A stretch of DNA of 64,000 nt, taken from NCBI GenBank assembly GCA_949283255.1, contig CASDRS010000002.1:320-64319 (forward strand), read 5' to 3'. The position numbers and the translations under genes are program-made. The stretch comes from an uncultured bacterium (lineage in GTDB: Bacteria > Cyanobacteriota > Vampirovibrionia > Gastranaerophilales > Gastranaerophilaceae). The notes below the pieces were generated by a model. The model saw only the letters and a program-made list of their open reading frames with translations. It did no database searches and was not told the origin of the DNA. This document shows, one piece after another, positions 4,978 to 58,253 of the stretch. Numbering within the stretch: the stretch's first letter is position 1; each line of letters starts with the position of its first letter.

Positions 4978-5148
4978 GTTTTTAAAAGTTCTTGACTTTA
5001 AATCTTTAGCAAGTATTATAAAAAACGTGGCAATTGAATATTCTACACCATTTATCCCAAAGAAGATTTTATTGCCCGCTTTTATAAATTGAATAGATTA
5101 TCTCCTAACGGAGTAGATCTTAAAAATAATTAAAATTTAATAGGGTTT

Positions 5149-5221
5149 GCCGCGTTAGCTCAGTTGGTAGAGCAAGGGACTGAAAATCCCTGTGTCCTTG
5201 GTTCGATTCCGAGACGCGGCA
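5149..5221 (+). tRNA. tRNA-Phe (GAA)
   Basis: A cloverleaf can be drawn completely. The acceptor GCCGCGT pairs with ACGCGGC. The D arm is GCTC...GAGC with AGTTGGTAG in the loop. The anticodon stem AGGGA/TCCCT encloses CTGAAAA with anticodon GAA. The T arm is CTTGG/CCGAG around TTCGATT. The discriminator is A (5221). The 3' CCA is not encoded, unlike the tRNA-His gene later in the window. I found no duplicate of its 3' end here. Confidence 0.97.
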
Positions 5222-5545
5222 AATTCTTTTTTAAAGTCATAGCAAATTTTTTTATTATAGGTGTTGTATTATTATGCAAGTATTATTTTCTAATTATTTA
5301 GCGTTAGATCGTAACCGATATTCAGCTTATACAAATTATAAAAATTCTCAGAACAATTATCATTGAACAGACATTGCAGGAATTTAATTTTTTTGAACTA
5401 ATAGGGGTGTGTTTCAAATATATCTTGATTTTTTTAGTCGGAAATCGCTAAAAATGAAATTCATGAACTGGCAAAAAAGTCTGATTACTGTCCGTCAATG
5501 TCTAAAACCAAACAGTGGCTCAAAAGCTTAAATGGTGAGAATTTA
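5222..5545 (+). other. Gene-poor stretch with gene fragments
   Basis: No convincing complete gene. A 30-codon frame starts with ATG at 5274 (MQVLFSNYLALDRNRYSAYT) and stops at 5366; it may be the 5' remnant of a broken gene. From about 5443 a frame without a start reads KSDYCPSMSKTKQWLKSLNG and runs into the element end at 5546, so it looks like the remains of a gene cut by the insertion. Both are too short to identify. Confidence 0.4.
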
Positions 5546-5595
5546 GACACAGTTTAAGAAATTCGGGATAGTTCAGGAATTTTGGGACAGGACAG
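5546..5595 (+). repeat. Left end of an IS21-like element, copy A
   Basis: This 50-base stretch matches 7566-7613 almost base for base. Both start ACACAGTTTAAGAAATT and continue GGGRTAGTTCAGGA to GACAGGACAG. The internal GTTCAGGAATTTT...GACAG motif recurs, reversed and doubled, at 8119-8163. Ends with repeated 20-bp motifs and TGT tips resemble the IS21 family from memory; no transposase lies next to it. Confidence 0.65.
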
Positions 5596-5692
5596 TGTTA
5601 AAAATTTTTTCAAAATTTTAAGTTTAGGTGGAAATTTATTTCAATTTACTAGGTAAAAAGTGACAAGAAATTTGAGAAAAATTGGTGTGTTA

Positions 5693-5749
5693 GTTTGCCC
5701 AAAAAACAAACCATCTGTAAATTGAAATCAAACCATTTGTCTTTTTACA
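5693..5749 (+). repeat. Right end of an IS21-like element, copy D
   Basis: This segment aligns with 57881-57938. Both start TTTGCCC, carry two copies of a CAAACCATYTGT-like motif about 20 bases apart (CAAACCATCTGTAAA, then ATCAAACCATTTGT) and end TGTYYTTTTACA. The tip TGTCTTTTTACA (5738-5749) matches the tip at 8165-8176 in type. It probably marks where an element met the host gene whose last codons and terminator follow directly. Confidence 0.6.
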
Positions 5750-5767
5750 CCAGCTATTCTTAATTCC

Positions 5768-5793
5768 AAGAGCCTTATACGGCTCTTTTTTTT
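5768..5793 (+). terminator. Rho-independent terminator of a lost gene
   Basis: AAGAGCC (5768-5774) pairs with GGCTCTT (5781-5787) around TTATAC, followed by a run of T to 5793. Only about 20 bases separate it from the element end at 5749, so the gene it once served has been removed by insertion or rearrangement. Confidence 0.8.
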
Positions 5794-5796
5794 GTG

Positions 5797-6008
5797 CTAC
5801 GCACGTAGATAATTGGTCGGTTGACAGTGGTAAATAACTCAAACTAGTACTAAAACTACCGGTCAACCTCAAAGTAAAACTACAAGTCGGAAGGTGAGAT
5901 TTACCTACGCACGTAGATATTTGGTCGGTTGACAGAGGTAAATATAACAAGTAGATTTTAACGCTACCGGTCAACCTCAAAATAAAACTACAAGTGTAAA
6001 ATATTTAC
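5797..6008 (+). repeat. Two tandem copies of a 108-bp repeat
   Basis: Copy one starts at 5797 and copy two at 5905. Each opens with the small palindrome CTACGCACGTAG, continues TTGGTCGGTTGACAG.GGTAAATA, has a variable middle, and closes CTACCGGTCAACCTCAAA.TAAAACTACAAGT. GGTTGAC and GTCAACC within each copy can pair over about 55 bases. The core differs from integron attC consensus. A minus-strand frame of 96 codons through it is judged to be an artefact of the repeat. A run of eight C follows at 6008-6015. Confidence 0.8.
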
Positions 6009-6014
6009 CCCCCC

Positions 6015-6806
6015 CTAGAGGATTTTTCTTAGATTTTCGACCATTTTATCTGCTGTCGGAAGGCGTTTTTCGATATCGCCAACGGCGAGAGTTTTGACAT
6101 CCTGCTCAAAATTTTCCGGTAAAATTTTACAATTTTTGAGGGCGAATGGTATAAGTTTCTTTTCTCCCGGATTCAAAACTCTGTTTTTTGCAAAAATTGT
6201 GTCAAAATAACTTGCAAGAAACGCCGCGCATCTGTGGTTAATGCTTACAAAATCAAGTCGTTCAACCGCGGAGGCTATCTGGTCACGGTATGAAAACATA
6301 GCATCTTTAAGGTATGCAAAATTCTTTTTGATAATATTTTCTGCTAATTTTTCCGGATAAGGGGTGTTAACTCTTTCTTTCACATCTTTTAACCAGCCGT
6401 TTTTGTCATAGAGGATTTCCGTTTTCTTAATATTATCCACAAAGCAGGTTGTGTAGCCTAAAGAAGCATTGTGTCCTTCCCACACCCATTTTATATTCCC
6501 TTCGATAAACTCCGGATTGCGGTACATAATATCAATTGGTTTACCGGTTTCCCTTAGCCTGAAAGTATCGCCGGTTTCAAAGTAGTGGTTATCAATCTCC
6601 GGTTTATCGGCGTATTTTTCAGCAATTTTGCGTCTTTCTTCAACCTGCGGTTCTGATTTTCCGTAAATATAAATATCGTAATCAGATTTATTATCTGCCA
6701 TTTGTGCGGTGGAAGATCCGCCTAAACCTATTGATTCGACCTCTTTAAGATTTTTATAATGTTCTACCATTTCCATTAAGATTTCATGATTACGGTTGAT
6801 TTGCAT
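6015..6806 (-). CDS. DUF4037-type nucleotidyltransferase-fold protein
   Basis: A 263-residue protein with a minimal nucleotidyltransferase domain. Residues 27-47 hold GLGGSSTAQMADNKSDYDIYIY, which is the GGS motif followed by the DxD metal-binding pair. The rest is helical, as in the DUF4037 group, whose substrates are mostly unknown. No signal peptide. A Shine-Dalgarno-like AGGAGT sits before ATG at 6806. It lies between element ends and next to a tandem repeat, so it may be cargo of an accessory segment. It is divergent from the 5' nuclease gene at 6875. Confidence 0.75.
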   Translation of the reverse strand: MQINRNHEILMEMVEHYKNLKEVESIGLGGSSTAQMADNKSDYDIYIYGKSEPQVEERRKIAEKYADKPEIDNHYFETGDTFRLRETGKPIDIMYRNPEFIEGNIKWVWEGHNASLGYTTCFVDNIKKTEILYDKNGWLKDVKERVNTPYPEKLAENIIKKNFAYLKDAMFSYRDQIASAVERLDFVSINHRCAAFLASYFDTIFAKNRVLNPGEKKLIPFALKNCKILPENFEQDVKTLAVGDIEKRLPTADKMVENLRKIL

Positions 6807-6840
6807 ATATACTCCTTTTTTTATAATTTTAACACAGTCA

Positions 6841-6849
6841 TGGTATAAT
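6841..6849 (+). promoter_or_regulatory. Extended -10 promoter for the polA 5' fragment
   Basis: TGGTATAAT is an extended -10 element (TG-N-TATAAT, box at 6844-6849). It lies 25 bases before the ATG at 6875, with GGGAG at 6864-6868 as ribosome binding site. I see no convincing -35, which is usual for extended -10 promoters. Confidence 0.55.
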
Positions 6850-6874
6850 GCTGTTTAACAGATGGGAGTATTAT

Positions 6875-7576
6875 ATGTCAAAAACTTTGATTTTAATAGA
6901 CGGTCACGCTTTAGCTTACAGGCAGTTTTTTGCGCTTGAAAGAACCTCGATGAAGAATTCTGAAAATCAGCCGACCTGGGCGGTATATGGATTCTTTAAA
7001 GCTGTGTTTGACCTTTTATCAAAAATCCATCCAGATTATATCGCAGTGGCTTTTGATGTAGGTAGAAGAACTTTCAGAACAGAAAAGTTTGAAGAATACA
7101 AGGCTAACAGAGAAGCAATGCCGGATACTCTTAGAAGTCAAATCGGAGTAATTTGTGAAGGGCTTAATGCTTTTGACATTCCTATAATTACCAAAGAAGG
7201 ATTTGAAGCTGACGATATTATTGGAACAATCTCAAAACTGGCTTCTGAAAAGGGGCATAATACTCTTATTTTAACCGGTGATCAGGATAGTTTTCAGCTT
7301 ATTGATATAGAGGGCTCTGTAAAGGTTCTCATTCCGTCAAAGGGAGAACTTGTTGAATATGATTGGAATAAGGTTTATGAAAAACTTGGGGTTTATCCAA
7401 ATCAGGTCACTGATTACAAAGGTTTGAGGGGAGATACTTCCGACAACATCCCGGGGATTAAAGGAATTGGCGAAAAGACTGCTCAGAAGCTTTTGAATAG
7501 ATATCCGCATCTTGAGGAAGTTCTTGCTGATTGTGAAAACATTCCTGAAAAGGCTGTTAAACAAAACACAGTTTAA
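6875..7576 (+). pseudogene. polA: DNA polymerase I, truncated after the 5'-3' exonuclease domain
   Basis: The 233 residues form the 5' nuclease of DNA polymerase I. They contain LILIDGHALAYRQFFAL, the acidic VAFDVG and EGFEADDIIGT, LTGDQDSFQL, and the helix-three-turn-helix GDTSDNIPGIKGIGEKTAQ. Family members continue for another 60 residues in this domain and about 600 more for the polymerase. Here the frame ends KAVKQNTV inside the left end of an IS21-like element whose tip TGT lies at 7555-7557. The ATG at 6875 with GGGAG is preferred over 6848. A standalone 5' nuclease is a possible reading, but the stop lying inside a repeat argues for disruption. Confidence 0.75.
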
Positions 7577-8176
7577 GAAATTTGGGGTAGTTCAGGATTT
7601 TTTGACAGGACAGATGAAAAGTTGTTAAACTTTTATTTTTTTGTAAATAGTTTTTGAAATTCGTCCAATGTCCCATTTATAATCATGTTTATATATTCTT
7701 TTAATTCTTTAGTATTAAATGCTGGTCCATTTTCATAATTAGCTTGTTTTTTTATTTTTCCACCTTGACGAATAAATTGAGCTCGAATTCCAATATGTTT
7801 GTCATCATTTTTGTATAAAGGTCCAATATCAAATTTTATTAAGTCTTTAGAAGTTCCTATTTCCTCAGCTTTTTTGAAATATTGTTTTGTTAGTTCTTTG
7901 TCTATAAACTTTTTACCTCTAACACAAGTTCTTCTTGATATTTGTAATTTAGCACCAAATCTTAATGAATTGCTCGCTTTAATATTATTGGTTTTCATTA
8001 AAATCCTCCATAAATCATGATTTTTAATCGTTTCTGTATATATAAAATTCGTAAAAAATAAATTTGCTATAACAGTAATTTAAATTTTTATAACATTAAT
8101 TTAAGTTTCTAAATTTATCTGTCCCAAAATTCCCGAACTGGCTGTCAAATATTCCTGAACTGGTTGTTCTTTTACA
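7555..8176. mobile_element. Transposase-less cassette with IS21-like ends
   Basis: The left end runs from TGT at 7555 through the repeat at 7566-7613. The right end carries two tandem 22-23 bp motifs, CTGTCCCAAAATTCCCGAAC (8119 on) and CTGTCAAATATTCCTGAAC (8142 on), each closing with TGG, then the tip TGTTCTTTTACA at 8165-8176. The ends are inverted relative to each other and share AGTTCAGGA and GACAG. The 0.6 kb between them hold one minus-strand gene and no transposase. It could be a non-autonomous cassette, or two unrelated ends brought together by recombination. Confidence 0.6.
7633..7998 (-). CDS. Hypothetical protein, 121 aa, cassette cargo
   Basis: A small basic protein preceded by a good Shine-Dalgarno (GGAGG, 7 bases before ATG at 7998). 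The N-terminus reads MKTNNIKASNSLRFGAKL, resembling the phenylalanine-glycine N-termini of several other hypothetical proteins in this window. There is one cysteine in RRTCVRGKKF and no signal peptide or membrane segment. I do not recognise a family. It is the only gene between the two element ends, transcribed against polA. Confidence 0.65.
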   Translation of the reverse strand: MKTNNIKASNSLRFGAKLQISRRTCVRGKKFIDKELTKQYFKKAEEIGTSKDLIKFDIGPLYKNDDKHIGIRAQFIRQGGKIKKQANYENGPAFNTKELKEYINMIINGTLDEFQKLFTKK

Positions 8177-9687
8177 ACAATGTTTATAGCCCGACTTTTG
8201 GTCACAAGCTTCCTTCAAAGATTTTTTATGATATCAAGGATTTGCCGAAATTAAAATGTGCTTGTTGCGGTAAAGATATGTTCAAGGCTGATGAAATTAA
8301 AACGATGCTCAATAGTTATCAGGCAGGTTCAAAAAGAGCACTTGAAAATAATGCGCTTGCAAAATTTAAGGATACTGAAGCATTTGAGTTTTTGAGCGGT
8401 TTATCAAAAGAAAATCCAAAAGCTACGCTGAGAGAACTAGTAAGTACTAGAGAAGGTGGGGCTAAAATGCGTGATTTACATCCGAGAACTCAGCTTGATA
8501 TAATGCAGATGGCCTTGATAGCTGATGGAATATCTGTAAAAACTCCGCGTGTTATCGCTAAACTTTCAAAATACAAAGATATGTTTGGCGAGGACTTAAG
8601 AGCTGTCTATGATACTATGGAAATTTATGCAGAAATGTATCCTAAAAAGACTTTTGCCGAGATATTCAATTTGCCGGAAGTGAGTGAAAGACATAAGACT
8701 CTGTATGCAGAAGCTAAAGCTCAAACCAGTAAGCAAAAAATTGATGTGTTTAAGAGACTAAGAGATTTTTCTGAAACTTTACCTCCGAAGGACAGGAGTA
8801 GACTTCAGGATGCAAATACGCAAGCTATAAAGATTTTAAATAATGGTATGTATGAGCCTAAATTTGTTAAGGCTCTTGTAAGTGGTATATACGAAAACTT
8901 TTTAAAGAGTGCTGATACAAAAAGGATAAGAGGAAAAATCATGCCGGTTGTAAATGATTTTCCTTATGATTTAATTTCTCCTGTAGATGCATTTATATCC
9001 AATTCAATTGATAAAAAGCGCAGTGATATTGATATTATAAAAATATTTTTAGATGACATGATGGCTACATTTGAGCACGCAAGACCGCGTAGTCAAGATG
9101 GAAGTGATGAGTGGTTTAATGGTATAGTATTGTGCAGGCATTGCAATAGAACCAGAGCAGATTTGCCATATCCGTTCTTTTTGTCATTTTACCCTGAGAT
9201 GAAAAAAAATATTCAGCGTCAGTGTGATAGAATTATGACTTTCATAATGAGAGGAAAGTTGAAAGGGCATGATGATTATCCTGCCGATATAAAGCGAACA
9301 ATGTTGGTTGAATCAGGAAATGTAATAAGACTAAATATTACTAAATATCTTAAATATAGAGAACAGCAAACACTTTTAAAGCTTGAACAGTCAAAAGCCA
9401 TACTAGCTCAGGATGAGGCAAAATACAAAGAAGCCTCTCAAAAATTGCGTGAAGTTGATTCTAGGATAGAGGAGATTATGAAGGTCGTACGACAGCTGAA
9501 AAAGGAAAGACGTGCTGCCAGTGAAAAATTTAATGCTGTAGCTGATTTGAAAAATCAATCCGAAGGTCAGGTTAAGGATAACGAAATTCTATTGAGAAAT
9601 ATAAGAGAAGATATGGAGATTGACAGTTCATTGAATAAATCTGTGATACTCAAGAGAATAAAGAAACTTCAGCAAAATAAAAATTAA
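8164..9687 (+). CDS. HNH-like zinc protein with coiled-coil tail, 5' end lost
   Basis: A 507-residue frame that opens at a TTG inside the right end of the mobile cassette, with no ribosome binding site; the native first few codons are probably lost. It then reads YSPTFGHKL, a motif common near the start of hypothetical proteins here. A first zinc pair is CACCGKDM. Around residues 302-335 lie FEHARPRSQDGSDEW and VLCRHCNRTRADLPY, the layout of an HNH (treble-clef) nuclease core: EH, then G..W.N, then CxxCN. The last 120 residues are a charged coiled coil. Nuclease activity is inferred only. The stop overlaps the convergent TolC gene in a shared TTAA. Confidence 0.75.
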   Translation: MFFYNNVYSPTFGHKLPSKIFYDIKDLPKLKCACCGKDMFKADEIKTMLNSYQAGSKRALENNALAKFKDTEAFEFLSGLSKENPKATLRELVSTREGGAKMRDLHPRTQLDIMQMALIADGISVKTPRVIAKLSKYKDMFGEDLRAVYDTMEIYAEMYPKKTFAEIFNLPEVSERHKTLYAEAKAQTSKQKIDVFKRLRDFSETLPPKDRSRLQDANTQAIKILNNGMYEPKFVKALVSGIYENFLKSADTKRIRGKIMPVVNDFPYDLISPVDAFISNSIDKKRSDIDIIKIFLDDMMATFEHARPRSQDGSDEWFNGIVLCRHCNRTRADLPYPFFLSFYPEMKKNIQRQCDRIMTFIMRGKLKGHDDYPADIKRTMLVESGNVIRLNITKYLKYREQQTLLKLEQSKAILAQDEAKYKEASQKLREVDSRIEEIMKVVRQLKKERRAASEKFNAVADLKNQSEGQVKDNEILLRNIREDMEIDSSLNKSVILKRIKKLQQNKN

Positions 9688-18193: not shown

Positions 18194-20479
18194 ATGTACG
18201 AATTCCCGTTTGAGCTGGATGAATTTCAAAAAGAGGCATGTGAATATATATCAGAAGGCAAAAGTGTCGTAGTGTGCGCTCCTACAGGCGCAGGAAAGAC
18301 TGTAATCGCAGAACATGCTATCAATCAAGCAATAAAAAACGGGGTTAGAATATTTTATACCACTCCGCTAAAGGCTCTTTCGAACCAAAAGTATAATGAT
18401 TTTTCAGAAAAATTCGGACACGATAATGTAGGGCTTTTAACTGGTGATACTTCAATAAATCGAGATGCTCAGATTGTTGTTATGACAACTGAAGTATTCA
18501 GAAATATGCTTTATGGTACAAATTTTGGTGCTGTTGCTGATAATTTGAAGGATGTAAGATATGTTGTTTTGGATGAAGTTCACTATATGAATGATGAGCA
18601 GCGCGGTACCGTTTGGGAAGAGAGCATAATTTACTGCCCTACTAATATTCAAATAATTGCGCTTTCTGCGACGGTTGCAAACGCTGATGAGCTTACTGCA
18701 TGGATAAACACTGTTCATTCGGAGACAAAGCTGGTTAATACGGATTTTAGACCTGTCCCGCTTAAGTTCTTTTACTTTGACAGCTCTCAGCCAGACAGAA
18801 TTCTCCCGCTGTTTACACCGACAGGTCAGTTAAATAAAAAAATTAAACCTGAGAAAAAAGTTTGGGGACCAAAGCGCAAAAAACAAAAATTTTATGCAAG
18901 AGATGTAGTAAGGAATTTAGCAAAAGCTGATATGTTGCCTGCTATATATTTTACGTTTTCACGCAAAAAGTGTGATGAGCAAATGGAAAAATGTGCTGAT
19001 TTGGAGTTAGTAACAAGAGCTGAGCAAGCCAAAATCAGGCAGTTTGTTGATAGTTATATTGCAGAAAATCCTCACTTATACAACAATAAGCATATTGAAT
19101 ATTTGTTGCAAGGAGTTGCATCCCATCATGCAGGCTTACTTCCGGCTTGGAAAAGTCTTGTTGAAAAGCTTTTTCAACAAGGATTGATAAAAGTTGTATT
19201 TGCAACAGAAACACTTGCCGCAGGAATAAACATGCCTGCTAGATCGACTGTTATAAGTTCAACAAGCAAAAGAACTGATTCAGGTCATAGAATGCTTACA
19301 GCCAGTGAATTTTTACAAATGTCAGGTCGTGCCGGCAGACGAGGAATGGATGAGGTAGGCTATGTAACAATTGTTGGTACTATGTTCCAGACTCCTGAAG
19401 AAGTAGCAGAGCTTGTTTTAAGTGATGCAAATCCTTTAGAGAGCCGCTTTTCACCGAGTTATTCAATGGTATTGAACCTGCTTCAAAGATTTTCGCTTGA
19501 TGAGGCAAAGGAGCTTATTTTAAAAAGCTTCGGGTATTTTTCTTCCGGATCAAGGCTAAAACCTTTACTTGCACTTCAGGGCAGTTATGATGCAGAACTT
19601 AAGGAAAGAGACTTTGTTTGTCCGTTTAAGCATTCGGATGAGGATCTTGCAAAGTACGACAGTTTGCGTCATCTATACGTCCAGAACCGACAAACTTACA
19701 AAAAAATATGTAAGCAAGAACGTTCAAAAAATCGACCTTTATCGCAGGAAGCTGTTGATTTCGGGAAAAAGACCAAAGGTATGCTTAATGAATTGCACAA
19801 GTATAAGTGTGATACCTGCAAGCTTTATAAGAAACACTCTAAAAATGTAGAAGTTGTTGAGAGAATATTAGCAAGAAAGAAGAAGCTTGAAAAAGAAATT
19901 GACAGACAAAGAGATATATTCTGGAATAAATTTTTGGCCCATAAGGCAGTTTTGGAGGAGTATGGGTATATAGTAGACAATTTCCCTACAGAAAAAGGTG
20001 TTATGACTTCAAAAATCCGCTCGGAAAATGAACTGTTTATTGCGGAGATTATTAACTCTCACATATTGGAAAATTTAACTCCGGCTCAGCTTGCAGGAGT
20101 AATCTGTGCTATAACAACTGAGGACTTGAGGGTTGATATACCATATATACCTTTTTCTGAGCCTGTTCGAAAGACATTAAATCTCATAAGAAATATAAGA
20201 AGAAAGCTCGAAAAAGTACAAAATGCACATTTAGTAGAAGCTCCTTGCTACATAAATCCATACTTCTCGTCATTGATAGAGCTTTGGGTTGAAGGTTCTG
20301 AGTGGGAAAGCATATCGGAACAAGTCGAGATGGGTGAAGGTGATATTGTCAGAGCTTTCAAGCGCGTTGTTGATGTTTTAAGACAATTTACAACTATATC
20401 AGATATTCCGGAAGCTTTAGTCTTTACGGCGCGTGAAGCAATTGAGAAAATTCAGCGTGAGCCTGTTGATATAGATTAG
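18194..20479 (+). CDS. Ski2-like DEAD/DEAH-box RNA helicase with DSHCT domain
   Basis: 761 residues. The helicase core shows motif I APTGAGKTVIAEH, Ia YTTPLKALSNQKY, II LDEVHYM, III LSATV, IV/V FATETLAAGINMPARS and VI QMSGRAGRRGMDEVGY. The C-terminal 180 residues (from about NELFIAEIINSH) fit the DSHCT domain of Ski2/Mtr4 helicases, including VEGSEWESI and GDIVRAFKRVVDVLRQ. Such helicases act on RNA in decay or processing and are characteristic of cyanobacteria and a few other bacterial lineages. GAGGAG precedes ATG. A glycosyltransferase follows 8 bases later. Confidence 0.92.
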   Translation: MYEFPFELDEFQKEACEYISEGKSVVVCAPTGAGKTVIAEHAINQAIKNGVRIFYTTPLKALSNQKYNDFSEKFGHDNVGLLTGDTSINRDAQIVVMTTEVFRNMLYGTNFGAVADNLKDVRYVVLDEVHYMNDEQRGTVWEESIIYCPTNIQIIALSATVANADELTAWINTVHSETKLVNTDFRPVPLKFFYFDSSQPDRILPLFTPTGQLNKKIKPEKKVWGPKRKKQKFYARDVVRNLAKADMLPAIYFTFSRKKCDEQMEKCADLELVTRAEQAKIRQFVDSYIAENPHLYNNKHIEYLLQGVASHHAGLLPAWKSLVEKLFQQGLIKVVFATETLAAGINMPARSTVISSTSKRTDSGHRMLTASEFLQMSGRAGRRGMDEVGYVTIVGTMFQTPEEVAELVLSDANPLESRFSPSYSMVLNLLQRFSLDEAKELILKSFGYFSSGSRLKPLLALQGSYDAELKERDFVCPFKHSDEDLAKYDSLRHLYVQNRQTYKKICKQERSKNRPLSQEAVDFGKKTKGMLNELHKYKCDTCKLYKKHSKNVEVVERILARKKKLEKEIDRQRDIFWNKFLAHKAVLEEYGYIVDNFPTEKGVMTSKIRSENELFIAEIINSHILENLTPAQLAGVICAITTEDLRVDIPYIPFSEPVRKTLNLIRNIRRKLEKVQNAHLVEAPCYINPYFSSLIELWVEGSEWESISEQVEMGEGDIVRAFKRVVDVLRQFTTISDIPEALVFTAREAIEKIQREPVDID

Positions 20480-56664: not shown

Positions 56665-56741
56665 GGCGGGTGTCGTCAAGTGGTTAAGACCTCGGATTGT
56701 GGTTCCGATATGCATGGGTTCGAATCCCATCTCCCGCCCCA
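56665..56741 (+). tRNA. tRNA-His (GTG)
   Basis: The extra 5' G (56665) pairs with C73 (56738), the identity element of tRNA-His. Acceptor GCGGGTG faces CTCCCGC with one U-U mismatch. The anticodon stem TCGGA/TCCGA encloses TTGTGGT with anticodon GTG. The T arm is ATGGG/CCCAT around TTCGAAT. CCA is encoded (56739-56741), unlike tRNA-Phe here. Its last 19 bases plus the terminator are duplicated three more times downstream. Confidence 0.95.
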
Positions 56742-56954
56742 TAATTAAAAAACTCCAGTTTGGAGTTTTTTTTGTACTTAAGGAAGATGGAGATGAGAAC
56801 CCATCGGTTCGATACAAAGCGAACCGCCGCAACAAAGTGAGGACGAGTGAGCCTGTATGCGAAGGCGTAGCCGTAGAAATCCCATCTCCCGCCCCATAAT
56901 TAAAAAACTCCAGTTTGGAGTTTTTTTTGTACTTAAGGAAGATGGAGATGAGAA
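56723..56954 (+). repeat. tRNA-His tail repeat, first pair
   Basis: The block from AATCCCATCTCCCGCCCC through the terminator to GGAGATGAGAA (56723-56799) recurs at 56878-56954. Between them lies a 78-base insert that starts CCCATCGGTTCGATAC. It holds the hairpin GGTTCG/CGAACC, and ends GCGAAGGCGTAGCCGTAGA. One unit is 155 bp. Open frames crossing it on both strands are artefacts of this structure. Confidence 0.85.
56747..56773 (+). terminator. Terminator of tRNA-His
   Basis: AACTCCA (56751-56757) pairs with TGGAGTT (56761-56767) around GTT, extended by A/T pairs, then T to 56773. The same hairpin recurs in each downstream tail copy. Confidence 0.9.
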
Positions 56955-57241
56955 TGTAGTTTTTTGTCCAGTTTGATTTGTACGGCTAGATAGATTATTT
57001 TGGTAAAGTTGGCTTTGTGTGGGCGTTTTCGGGTCGGAAAAATTAAGTGTTCCAAAAAAATCAAACTGGAAAACTGGACTATTTCTGGACTGTACGGATA
57101 GATTGAGATTTGTATATTATCAGTGAGATACGCACCAAATTTGAACTATACGGATAATTTGATTATTTTGGAACAGTCCAGTTCCGCAAACTTTTAAAAA
57201 TTTTAAAACAAAATCGGAAGTTTTTTCTTAAGGTTGGAATA
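56955..57241 (+). other. Gene-free stretch with probable element left end
   Basis: No gene seen. GTCCAGTTTGATT (about 56967) and AATCAAACTGGA (about 57060) are inverted. TACGGCTAGATAGATTATTTT, TACGGATAGATTGAGAT and TACGGATAATTTGATTATTTT are diverged repeats and resemble, in reverse, the right end at 57881-57938. This is probably the left end of a small element carrying the GNAT gene. Confidence 0.45.
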
Positions 57242-57688
57242 TTATAAAATTTTCTTTAAATAAATCATATCTACCAACTGCTTTTCATTTTCAAAAATTG
57301 GGTGCGGGTAGTTATCAATAAAAAAGTTTTTTAGTCTGTGAGTTTCTTGAAAACCTTGTTTTTTATAGAATTTCAAGGTATTGTTATTTTCTCCGGTTCC
57401 AAGGATTAAATATTTAAAATTTGTTTTATATTTATTACAGACAAAATTAATCAATGCTGAGGCATAGCCTTTATTTTGATACTGCGTATAAGTTGCAAGA
57501 TTTTTTATTTCAACGGTTTCCTTATCAATCTCCATAACAGCACAGATTGATGTCAAGATATCATTATCGTACAAAGCAAAAAGTTTTGACGATTCCAGAT
57601 ATTTGTTAATCATTGCTTTATCTTCATCGCCGATTAATAGAATATCCATATAATCCTTTTTATTCGTAGTTATTTCTTTAATTTGCAT
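57242..57688 (-). CDS. GNAT-family N-acetyltransferase
   Basis: 148 residues. The acetyl-CoA-binding core is IKNLATYTQYQNKGYASALI, the family's (Q/R)xxGx(G/A) loop in the form QNKGYAS; TLKFYKKQGFQETHR is the usual C-terminal strand and helix. The substrate is unknown. It lies between diverged element ends and tRNA-His tail repeats, on the opposite strand to its surroundings, so it looks like accessory cargo. The ribosome site is weak. Confidence 0.82.
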   Translation of the reverse strand: MQIKEITTNKKDYMDILLIGDEDKAMINKYLESSKLFALYDNDILTSICAVMEIDKETVEIKNLATYTQYQNKGYASALINFVCNKYKTNFKYLILGTGENNNTLKFYKKQGFQETHRLKNFFIDNYPHPIFENEKQLVDMIYLKKIL

Positions 57689-57880
57689 AAGTTAAATATA
57701 TCATAATTGATACAAAACCGAAACAAAGGTCGGAAATAGGGGGATAATGCTTTGTTCTCAGAGTTAATGTGTATGTACCCAATGAAATAGAATATTATAA
57801 GAAATCCGTATTAAAAACAGGGTTTTATTAAGAATGTATTAATGAAAACATTGCTCATTTGTTTAACATTTTAAATTTAT

Positions 57881-57938
57881 TTTGCCCGAAATAATCAAAC
57901 TATCTGTAAAATATAATCAAACCATGTGTTCTTTTACA
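57881..57938 (+). repeat. Right end of an IS21-like element, copy E
   Basis: It aligns with 5693-5749: TTTGCCC, two CAAACYATSTGT motifs and the tip TGTTCTTTTACA (57927-57938). The tail repeat array begins immediately after the tip (GAGAACCCATCGG), so the element abuts or interrupts a tail unit. 57689-57880 holds nothing I can identify. Confidence 0.6.
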
Positions 57939-58253
57939 GAGAACCCATCGGTTCGATACAAAGCGAACCGCCGCAACAAAGTGAGGACGTGTGAGCCTGT
58001 ATGCGAAGGCGTAGCCGTAGAAATCCCATCTCCCGCCCCATAATTAAAAAACTCCAGTTTGGAGTTTTTTTTTGTACTTAAGGAAGATGGAGATGAGAAC
58101 CCATCGGTTCGATACAAAGCGAACCGCCACAACAAAGTGAGGACGTGTGAGCCTGTATGCGAAGGCGTAGCCGTAGAAATCCCATCTCCCGCCCCATAAT
58201 AAAAAGGACTCCAGTTTGGAGTTTTTTTTGCACTAATGGAAGATGTAGATGAG
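57939..58253 (+). repeat. tRNA-His tail repeat array, second pair
   Basis: Two more inserts (57944-58021 and 58100-58177) alternate with two more tRNA-His tail-plus-terminator blocks (58022-58099 and 58178-58253). The last block has decayed (AATAAAAAGGACTCC, GCACTAATGGAAGATG). Together with 56723-56954 this gives four tails and three inserts around the GNAT segment. Confidence 0.85.

Follow-up and report, generated by a model that had tools for sequence, protein, structure and literature searches.

A truncated polA in a Gastranaerophilales genome is a foreign passenger in a mobile element

The window analysed here is a stretch of 64,000 nucleotides from an uncultured bacterium of the Gastranaerophilaceae, which are gut bacteria related to cyanobacteria. 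It contains a polA frame (6875–7576, + strand) that is normal for about 230 codons and then runs into mobile-element sequence, giving a product of 233 amino acids. The initial annotation was right about these coordinates and about the cut, and also about the far side of the element, where no polymerase domain follows. The question is whether this bacterium has broken its gene for DNA polymerase I, whether a 5' nuclease on its own is enough, or whether the sequence has been rearranged or wrongly assembled at this place.

The polA fragment and the intact gene

The genome of the window has an intact polA on contig C10. This is an open frame of 942 amino acids that includes its own 5' nuclease part, and a whole-genome search for the polymerase domain (PF00476) gave a single match, which lies inside this frame. 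The C10 protein is 71% identical to the fragment in the window. The other 12 members of the genus have one polA match each, in 11 cases in open frames of 942–988 amino acids and in the twelfth, G001, in a frame of 241 amino acids. Because of the intact gene on C10 and the one match per genus member, the fragment is an extra copy, and the cell's own polA is not broken. The initial annotation had considered the opposite, a resident polA cut by an IS21-like insertion with its polymerase part lost or moved elsewhere. The visible frame break would agree with this, but the C10 copy refutes it and the fragment belongs to a different genus, g24 (see below), so that this reading has virtually no chance of being correct.

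It had also been suggested that the remaining 5' nuclease suffices, i.e., that the fragment works as a lone nuclease in repair or in the removal of RNA primers. It does have an open frame with a start codon, and its N-terminal domain is complete (5_3_exonuc_N is matched over its full length, E 1.1e-53). The C-terminal part of the nuclease is cut, with only positions 1–59 of the 97 in 5_3_exonuc being matched (E 3.9e-21), and the nuclease domain is therefore incomplete. All NCBIfam models of lone 5'-3' exonucleases stayed under the cut-off against the fragment. No lone homologue was found in 11 of the 12 other genus members, each of which has one full-length polA, and the intact polA on C10 already provides the activity. 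Compared with its nearest full-length relative (G116, see below), the fragment has 12 synonymous and 3 nonsynonymous codon differences, which would speak for a working protein, but the low nonsynonymous count may stem from the time that the sequence spent in its donor. A functional lone nuclease is improbable, and the piece of polA is probably no more than a dead passenger, without function.

The inserted unit and the origin of its parts

The fragment lies within an insert of 2819 bases (5358–8176), found 135 bp downstream of a tRNA-Phe gene and within the first codons of an HNH-nuclease gene. The features of this region are:

5148–5222, +: native tRNA-Phe (GAA), located with ARAGORN; the order of tRNA and HNH gene is the same in the sister genome G012 (L075)
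5274–5357, +: first 28 codons of the native HNH-nuclease gene, cut off by the insert
5353–5357: left copy of the 5-bp target duplication, ACAAT
5358–5656, +: left end (L) of the mobile unit; left ends with 81–99% identity occur in many genomes of the family
5651–5749, +: right-type terminus (X); 5358–5749 forms the L-X unit, with matches in G368 and G325
5750–7565, +: captured foreign segment, genus g24
6015–6806, -: foreign DUF4037/Polbeta-like nucleotidyltransferase gene
6875–7576, +: foreign 5' fragment of polA, 233 amino acids, with incomplete nuclease domain and a stop from the element
7566–7635, +: truncated left end (L2) fused to polA, 82% identical to L at 5547–5620
7633–7998, -: cargo ORF of 121 amino acids
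8076–8176, +: right end (R), ending in ...TTTTACA
8177–8181: right copy of the target duplication, ACAAT
8182–9687, +: remainder of the interrupted HNH-nuclease gene

The same place is uninterrupted in G012, with about 100 bp between the tRNA-Phe and the HNH-nuclease gene. Joining the flanks of 5358–8176 in the window gives one open frame of 529 amino acids that is colinear with the G012 protein (...NSQNN-VYSPTFGHKL...); a first contig scan with the HNH protein as query had found no relative. The gene to the right of the element had been described as lacking a proper start, and this is correct, since the insert split the HNH gene and left its first codons on the other side. The best supported reading is that 5358–8176 entered as one transposition unit, with ACAAT as the target duplication. 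The final step was a single transposition because an exact duplication of 5 bp, in the register typical of the family, is present at the outer limits. An artificial join made at a repeated element end during assembly is very improbable. Several contigs of the family do end at these repeats, showing that the repeats can break assemblies, but a false join would leave no duplication of 5 bp and would not let the same HNH gene resume in frame on the other side, and the idea was dropped once the HNH frame had been restored. Where the initial annotation had left the choice between a rearrangement and an assembly join, the rearrangement, at element ends, is what stands.

Each of the three parts of the insert (L-X, g24 DNA and L2-R) has a best match of its own. 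L-X recurs with 99.2% identity over 392 bp in G368, a genome of g24, where it is found downstream of a tRNA-Phe and ahead of a single cargo ORF of 137 amino acids and an R end; in G325, an L..X pair has the exact 5-bp duplication ACGAC. The L2-R stretch (7566–8176) is 99% identical in G085 (g10) and 95% identical in G127 (g6), and in G162 the identity is 95% over 436 bp. Position 7566 was at one point taken as an element terminus, and this was dropped, as the copy in G085 carries additional left-end sequence upstream. The polA cut is thus not at an element end, as had been thought, but inside a truncated left end.

Going by sequence similarity, the polA fragment and the neighbouring nucleotidyltransferase gene are chromosomal DNA of a close relative of G116, which belongs to genus g24 of Candidatus Gastranaerophilales. 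Among 191 genomes of the family, the best protein match of the fragment is in G116 (98% over 231 residues), within an open frame of 905 amino acids. The identity to this PolA ends at 7566, and the final residues of the fragment (..KQ-NTV-stop), including the stop codon, come from the truncated left end of the element. At the DNA level, 5750–7566 is 95.2% identical to G116:C14:5995-7809, a stretch that contains a short repeat region, the DUF4037/Polbeta-like nucleotidyltransferase gene and the beginning of polA, which continues normally from there. The nucleotidyltransferase gene differs from that of G116 in 19 codons, 17 of them synonymous and 2 nonsynonymous. Both genes are also matched, in the same order and at 77%, in a second g24 genome, G169. 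The public records closest to the fragment have titles naming Candidatus Gastranaerophilales or an uncultured bacterium, and no plasmid or phage record matched as a carrier of the insert. The g24 identity begins one base after the X terminus and ends at the truncated left end. The foreign segment also contains a repeat of about 92 bp (5797–5887 and 5905–5995, the copies being 86% identical), and G116 has copies of it at the corresponding position and, on the same contig, near 12.8 kb.

The unit has the build of a composite transposon, with the related units L-X (5358–5749) and L2-R (7566–8176) flanking the cargo and ACAAT on the outside. It encodes neither a MuA-like nor a MuB-like protein and is therefore non-autonomous. 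It is very likely that the polA piece is g24 DNA inside this one transposition unit, which landed in the HNH gene downstream of tRNA-Phe. As for the route, the most likely one is that two non-autonomous copies flanked the g24 DNA and moved jointly as a composite transposon. An L-X unit would have inserted upstream of the nucleotidyltransferase gene in a g24 donor, and a deletion that took away the remainder of polA and part of the left end of a second element copy would have fused this copy to polA at codon 230. With a Mu-type transposase supplied in trans, the two outermost ends, one left and one right, would have been brought together, and everything between them would have moved, with the polA piece as a functionless passenger. 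This composite route is supported by the presence of the L-X stretch in the donor genus itself, and by a second composite of the same plan in G051, where an outer AGAGC duplication encloses two cassettes. Counting against it, L-X was seen upstream of the nucleotidyltransferase gene in none of the g24 genomes, the window's own genome yielded no transposase operon that has exactly these ends, and the truncated L2 requires an additional deletion step.

A composite built in another way, by DNA uptake with illegitimate end joining or by recombination between resident copies of the element, seems rather unlikely. It would account for the junction of polA and L2, where about 1 bp is shared as is typical of illegitimate joining, and for the different best match of each of the three parts; the exact outer duplication, however, makes the last step at this site a transposition, and G051 has the same composite plan. 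End joining may nevertheless have been the origin of the first assembly of the composite. In G051 (C6, L115 3113-6396), the roughly 1 kb between the cassettes includes a fragment of PdxA (E 3.6e-56).

The element family and its sites near tRNA genes

The element had been called IS21-like. IS21 elements have repeated sites near their ends, a trait shared by the elements here, but there is no clear IstB in the window's genome, and relatives have a MuA-like transposase beside the same left end. The search for IstB in this genome gave only two weak IstB_IS21 matches, in frames of 468 and 764 amino acids, none near these ends and one of them being a helicase (18194–20479 of the window). The IS21 assignment was given up in favour of the MuA/MuB-like genes. 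In G174, G106 and G181, left ends like the one in the window immediately precede an operon of three genes. The first gene encodes a MuA-like transposase of 663 amino acids (Mu-transpos_C, E 1.6e-14; phrog_310 over its length, E 5.6e-113), which TnsB chains in the PDB matched only at E 0.002, and the second a MuB-like/TniB-like ATPase of 243–258 amino acids (phrog_296, E 1.5e-49; TniB, E 9.5e-10). Exact 5-bp duplications in the same register were found in 6 of 35 L..R/X pairs, with about 0.03 expected by chance; these are ACAAT (the window), GCCAA, AGAGC, ACGAC, GTCGA and ATTAC. The family fits a Mu-type element because of these duplications, its MuA/MuB-like genes and an end structure that is long on the left but compact and repeated on the right, with putative transposition by the MuA-like transposase acting on these ends.

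The window's own genome has a related MuA/MuB-like operon on C5, 555 bp downstream of a tRNA-Ser, with no copy of these ends detected beside it. Here (G000:C5, L157 5548-7438), two ORFs that resemble each other come after the operon; they have Phage_integrase domains with motifs that look intact by eye. G106 has a second MuA/MuB-like pair (C16, L317 5791-8647), with an N-terminal HTH in the ATPase and followed by tail-fibre-like genes; this is probably part of a Mu-like prophage that lies immediately after the small operon. In G085 (C1, L110 4385-9844), several units with these ends, of a single ORF each, form an array next to a tRNA-Phe, and many of the cargo proteins are small and alike at their start (FGAKL and FGSLKSI types). 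Single-ORF units prompted a reading of the arrays as integron cassettes, which was rejected since these units possess both a left and a right end, with 5-bp duplications at the outer ends. No description of these elements in Gastranaerophilales was found in the open-access literature, and the family that carried polA looks like the newer part of this work: tRNA-proximal cargo elements with Mu-type ends, in which the third gene of the operon sometimes has a degenerate tyrosine-recombinase domain as its last part.

The position of the window's insert relative to tRNA-Phe has many parallels. Left-end sites were gathered by similarity to the left end in the window, giving 82 distinct ones, of which the 79 with at least 400 bp of outer flank were counted. 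As many as 51 of these 79, deduplicated by flank and not all independent by descent, lie 46–382 bp downstream of the 3' end of a tRNA, all on the same strand and facing the tRNA, with none reversed; a rough estimate of what is expected by chance, based on about 45 tRNAs per 1.9-Mb genome, is about 1%. The tRNAs are dominated by tRNA-Phe, -Asn and -Met. Similarly, 19 of 26 transposase loci, a few of which were chosen on earlier clues, are within 1.1 kb downstream of a tRNA on the same strand, and no reversed tRNA was found.

The window contains a second element (56955–57938, 984 bp, TGTAG...TTTTACA; limits read by eye), flanked by GAGAA (56950–56954 and 57939–57943) and located 213 bp downstream of a tRNA-His (56666–56741). 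Its cargo is one GNAT acetyltransferase ORF (57242–57688, -). Repeated units of about 150 bp, in which the 3' end of tRNA-His is copied along with its terminator, occur downstream of this tRNA (56710–58220), and one of these units harbours the second element.

How such sites could be chosen is suggested by the third gene of the operon. Its protein is usually about 225 amino acids long and without a clear family. One group of about 190 amino acids has a stretch resembling the core-binding part of a tyrosine recombinase, and the protein of G148 has 548 amino acids and a Phage_integrase domain (E 4.8e-9) from which the usual Arg/His/Arg motif residues are absent by eye; G150 has a counterpart, judged by length, of 550 amino acids. 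In one Tn7-like element, the targets are selected by TnsF, a protein whose tyrosine-recombinase domain is inactivated, and CyCAST homes 30–33 nt downstream of tRNA (Faure et al. 2023, PMC10293859). By analogy, the third protein may be parallel to TnsF and a candidate target selector, although this is suggestive only. TniQ was found in 0 of 146 genomes, in a search in which the control genomes were silent too. We put forward, tentatively and at somewhat less than even confidence, that a large Mu-type family of Gastranaerophilales homes downstream of particular tRNAs by means of its third protein, sometimes an apparently inactivated tyrosine recombinase, and that its single-gene non-autonomous cassettes pair and carry pieces of chromosomal genes between genera, broken housekeeping genes being the footprints.

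Known systems and the meaning of the finding

Several known systems share parts of this picture. Mu, with its MuA and MuB proteins, has the same transposase family (phrog_310, Mu-transpos_C), a MuB-like ATPase (phrog_296), a 5-bp duplication and a long left with a compact repeated right end. Mu-type transposases usually choose their targets nearly at random, whereas the elements described here concentrate downstream of tRNA genes; they also have a third operon gene, are small, lack phage structural genes and mostly carry single cargo genes. Composite transposons, including the mosaic TIMEs of the Tn3 family (PMC4133298), likewise have two related non-autonomous units that flank and mobilise unrelated DNA, but the unit in the window differs from them by its Mu-type ends and by a cargo that consists of housekeeping DNA taken from a different genus. 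The tRNA-homing Tn7-like elements share the one-way insertion downstream of tRNA, as in CyCAST, and the TnsF of Tn6022 is mirrored by the sometimes degenerate tyrosine-recombinase domain of the third protein (PMC10293859). They differ in that the transposase here is MuA-like and the distances to the tRNA are looser than those of CyCAST.

Once explained as a foreign passenger, the truncated polA is ordinary, and a false alarm about the loss of DNA polymerase I is removed. In its place stands chromosomal DNA that passed from one genus of uncultured gut bacteria to another, by a route that can be read from the sequence. The transposon family involved has a strong one-way insertion downstream of tRNA genes and cassette-like cargo. 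Should the third protein turn out to select the target, this would be a testable case of homing gained by a Mu-type transposase, in parallel to TnsF in Tn7-like elements.
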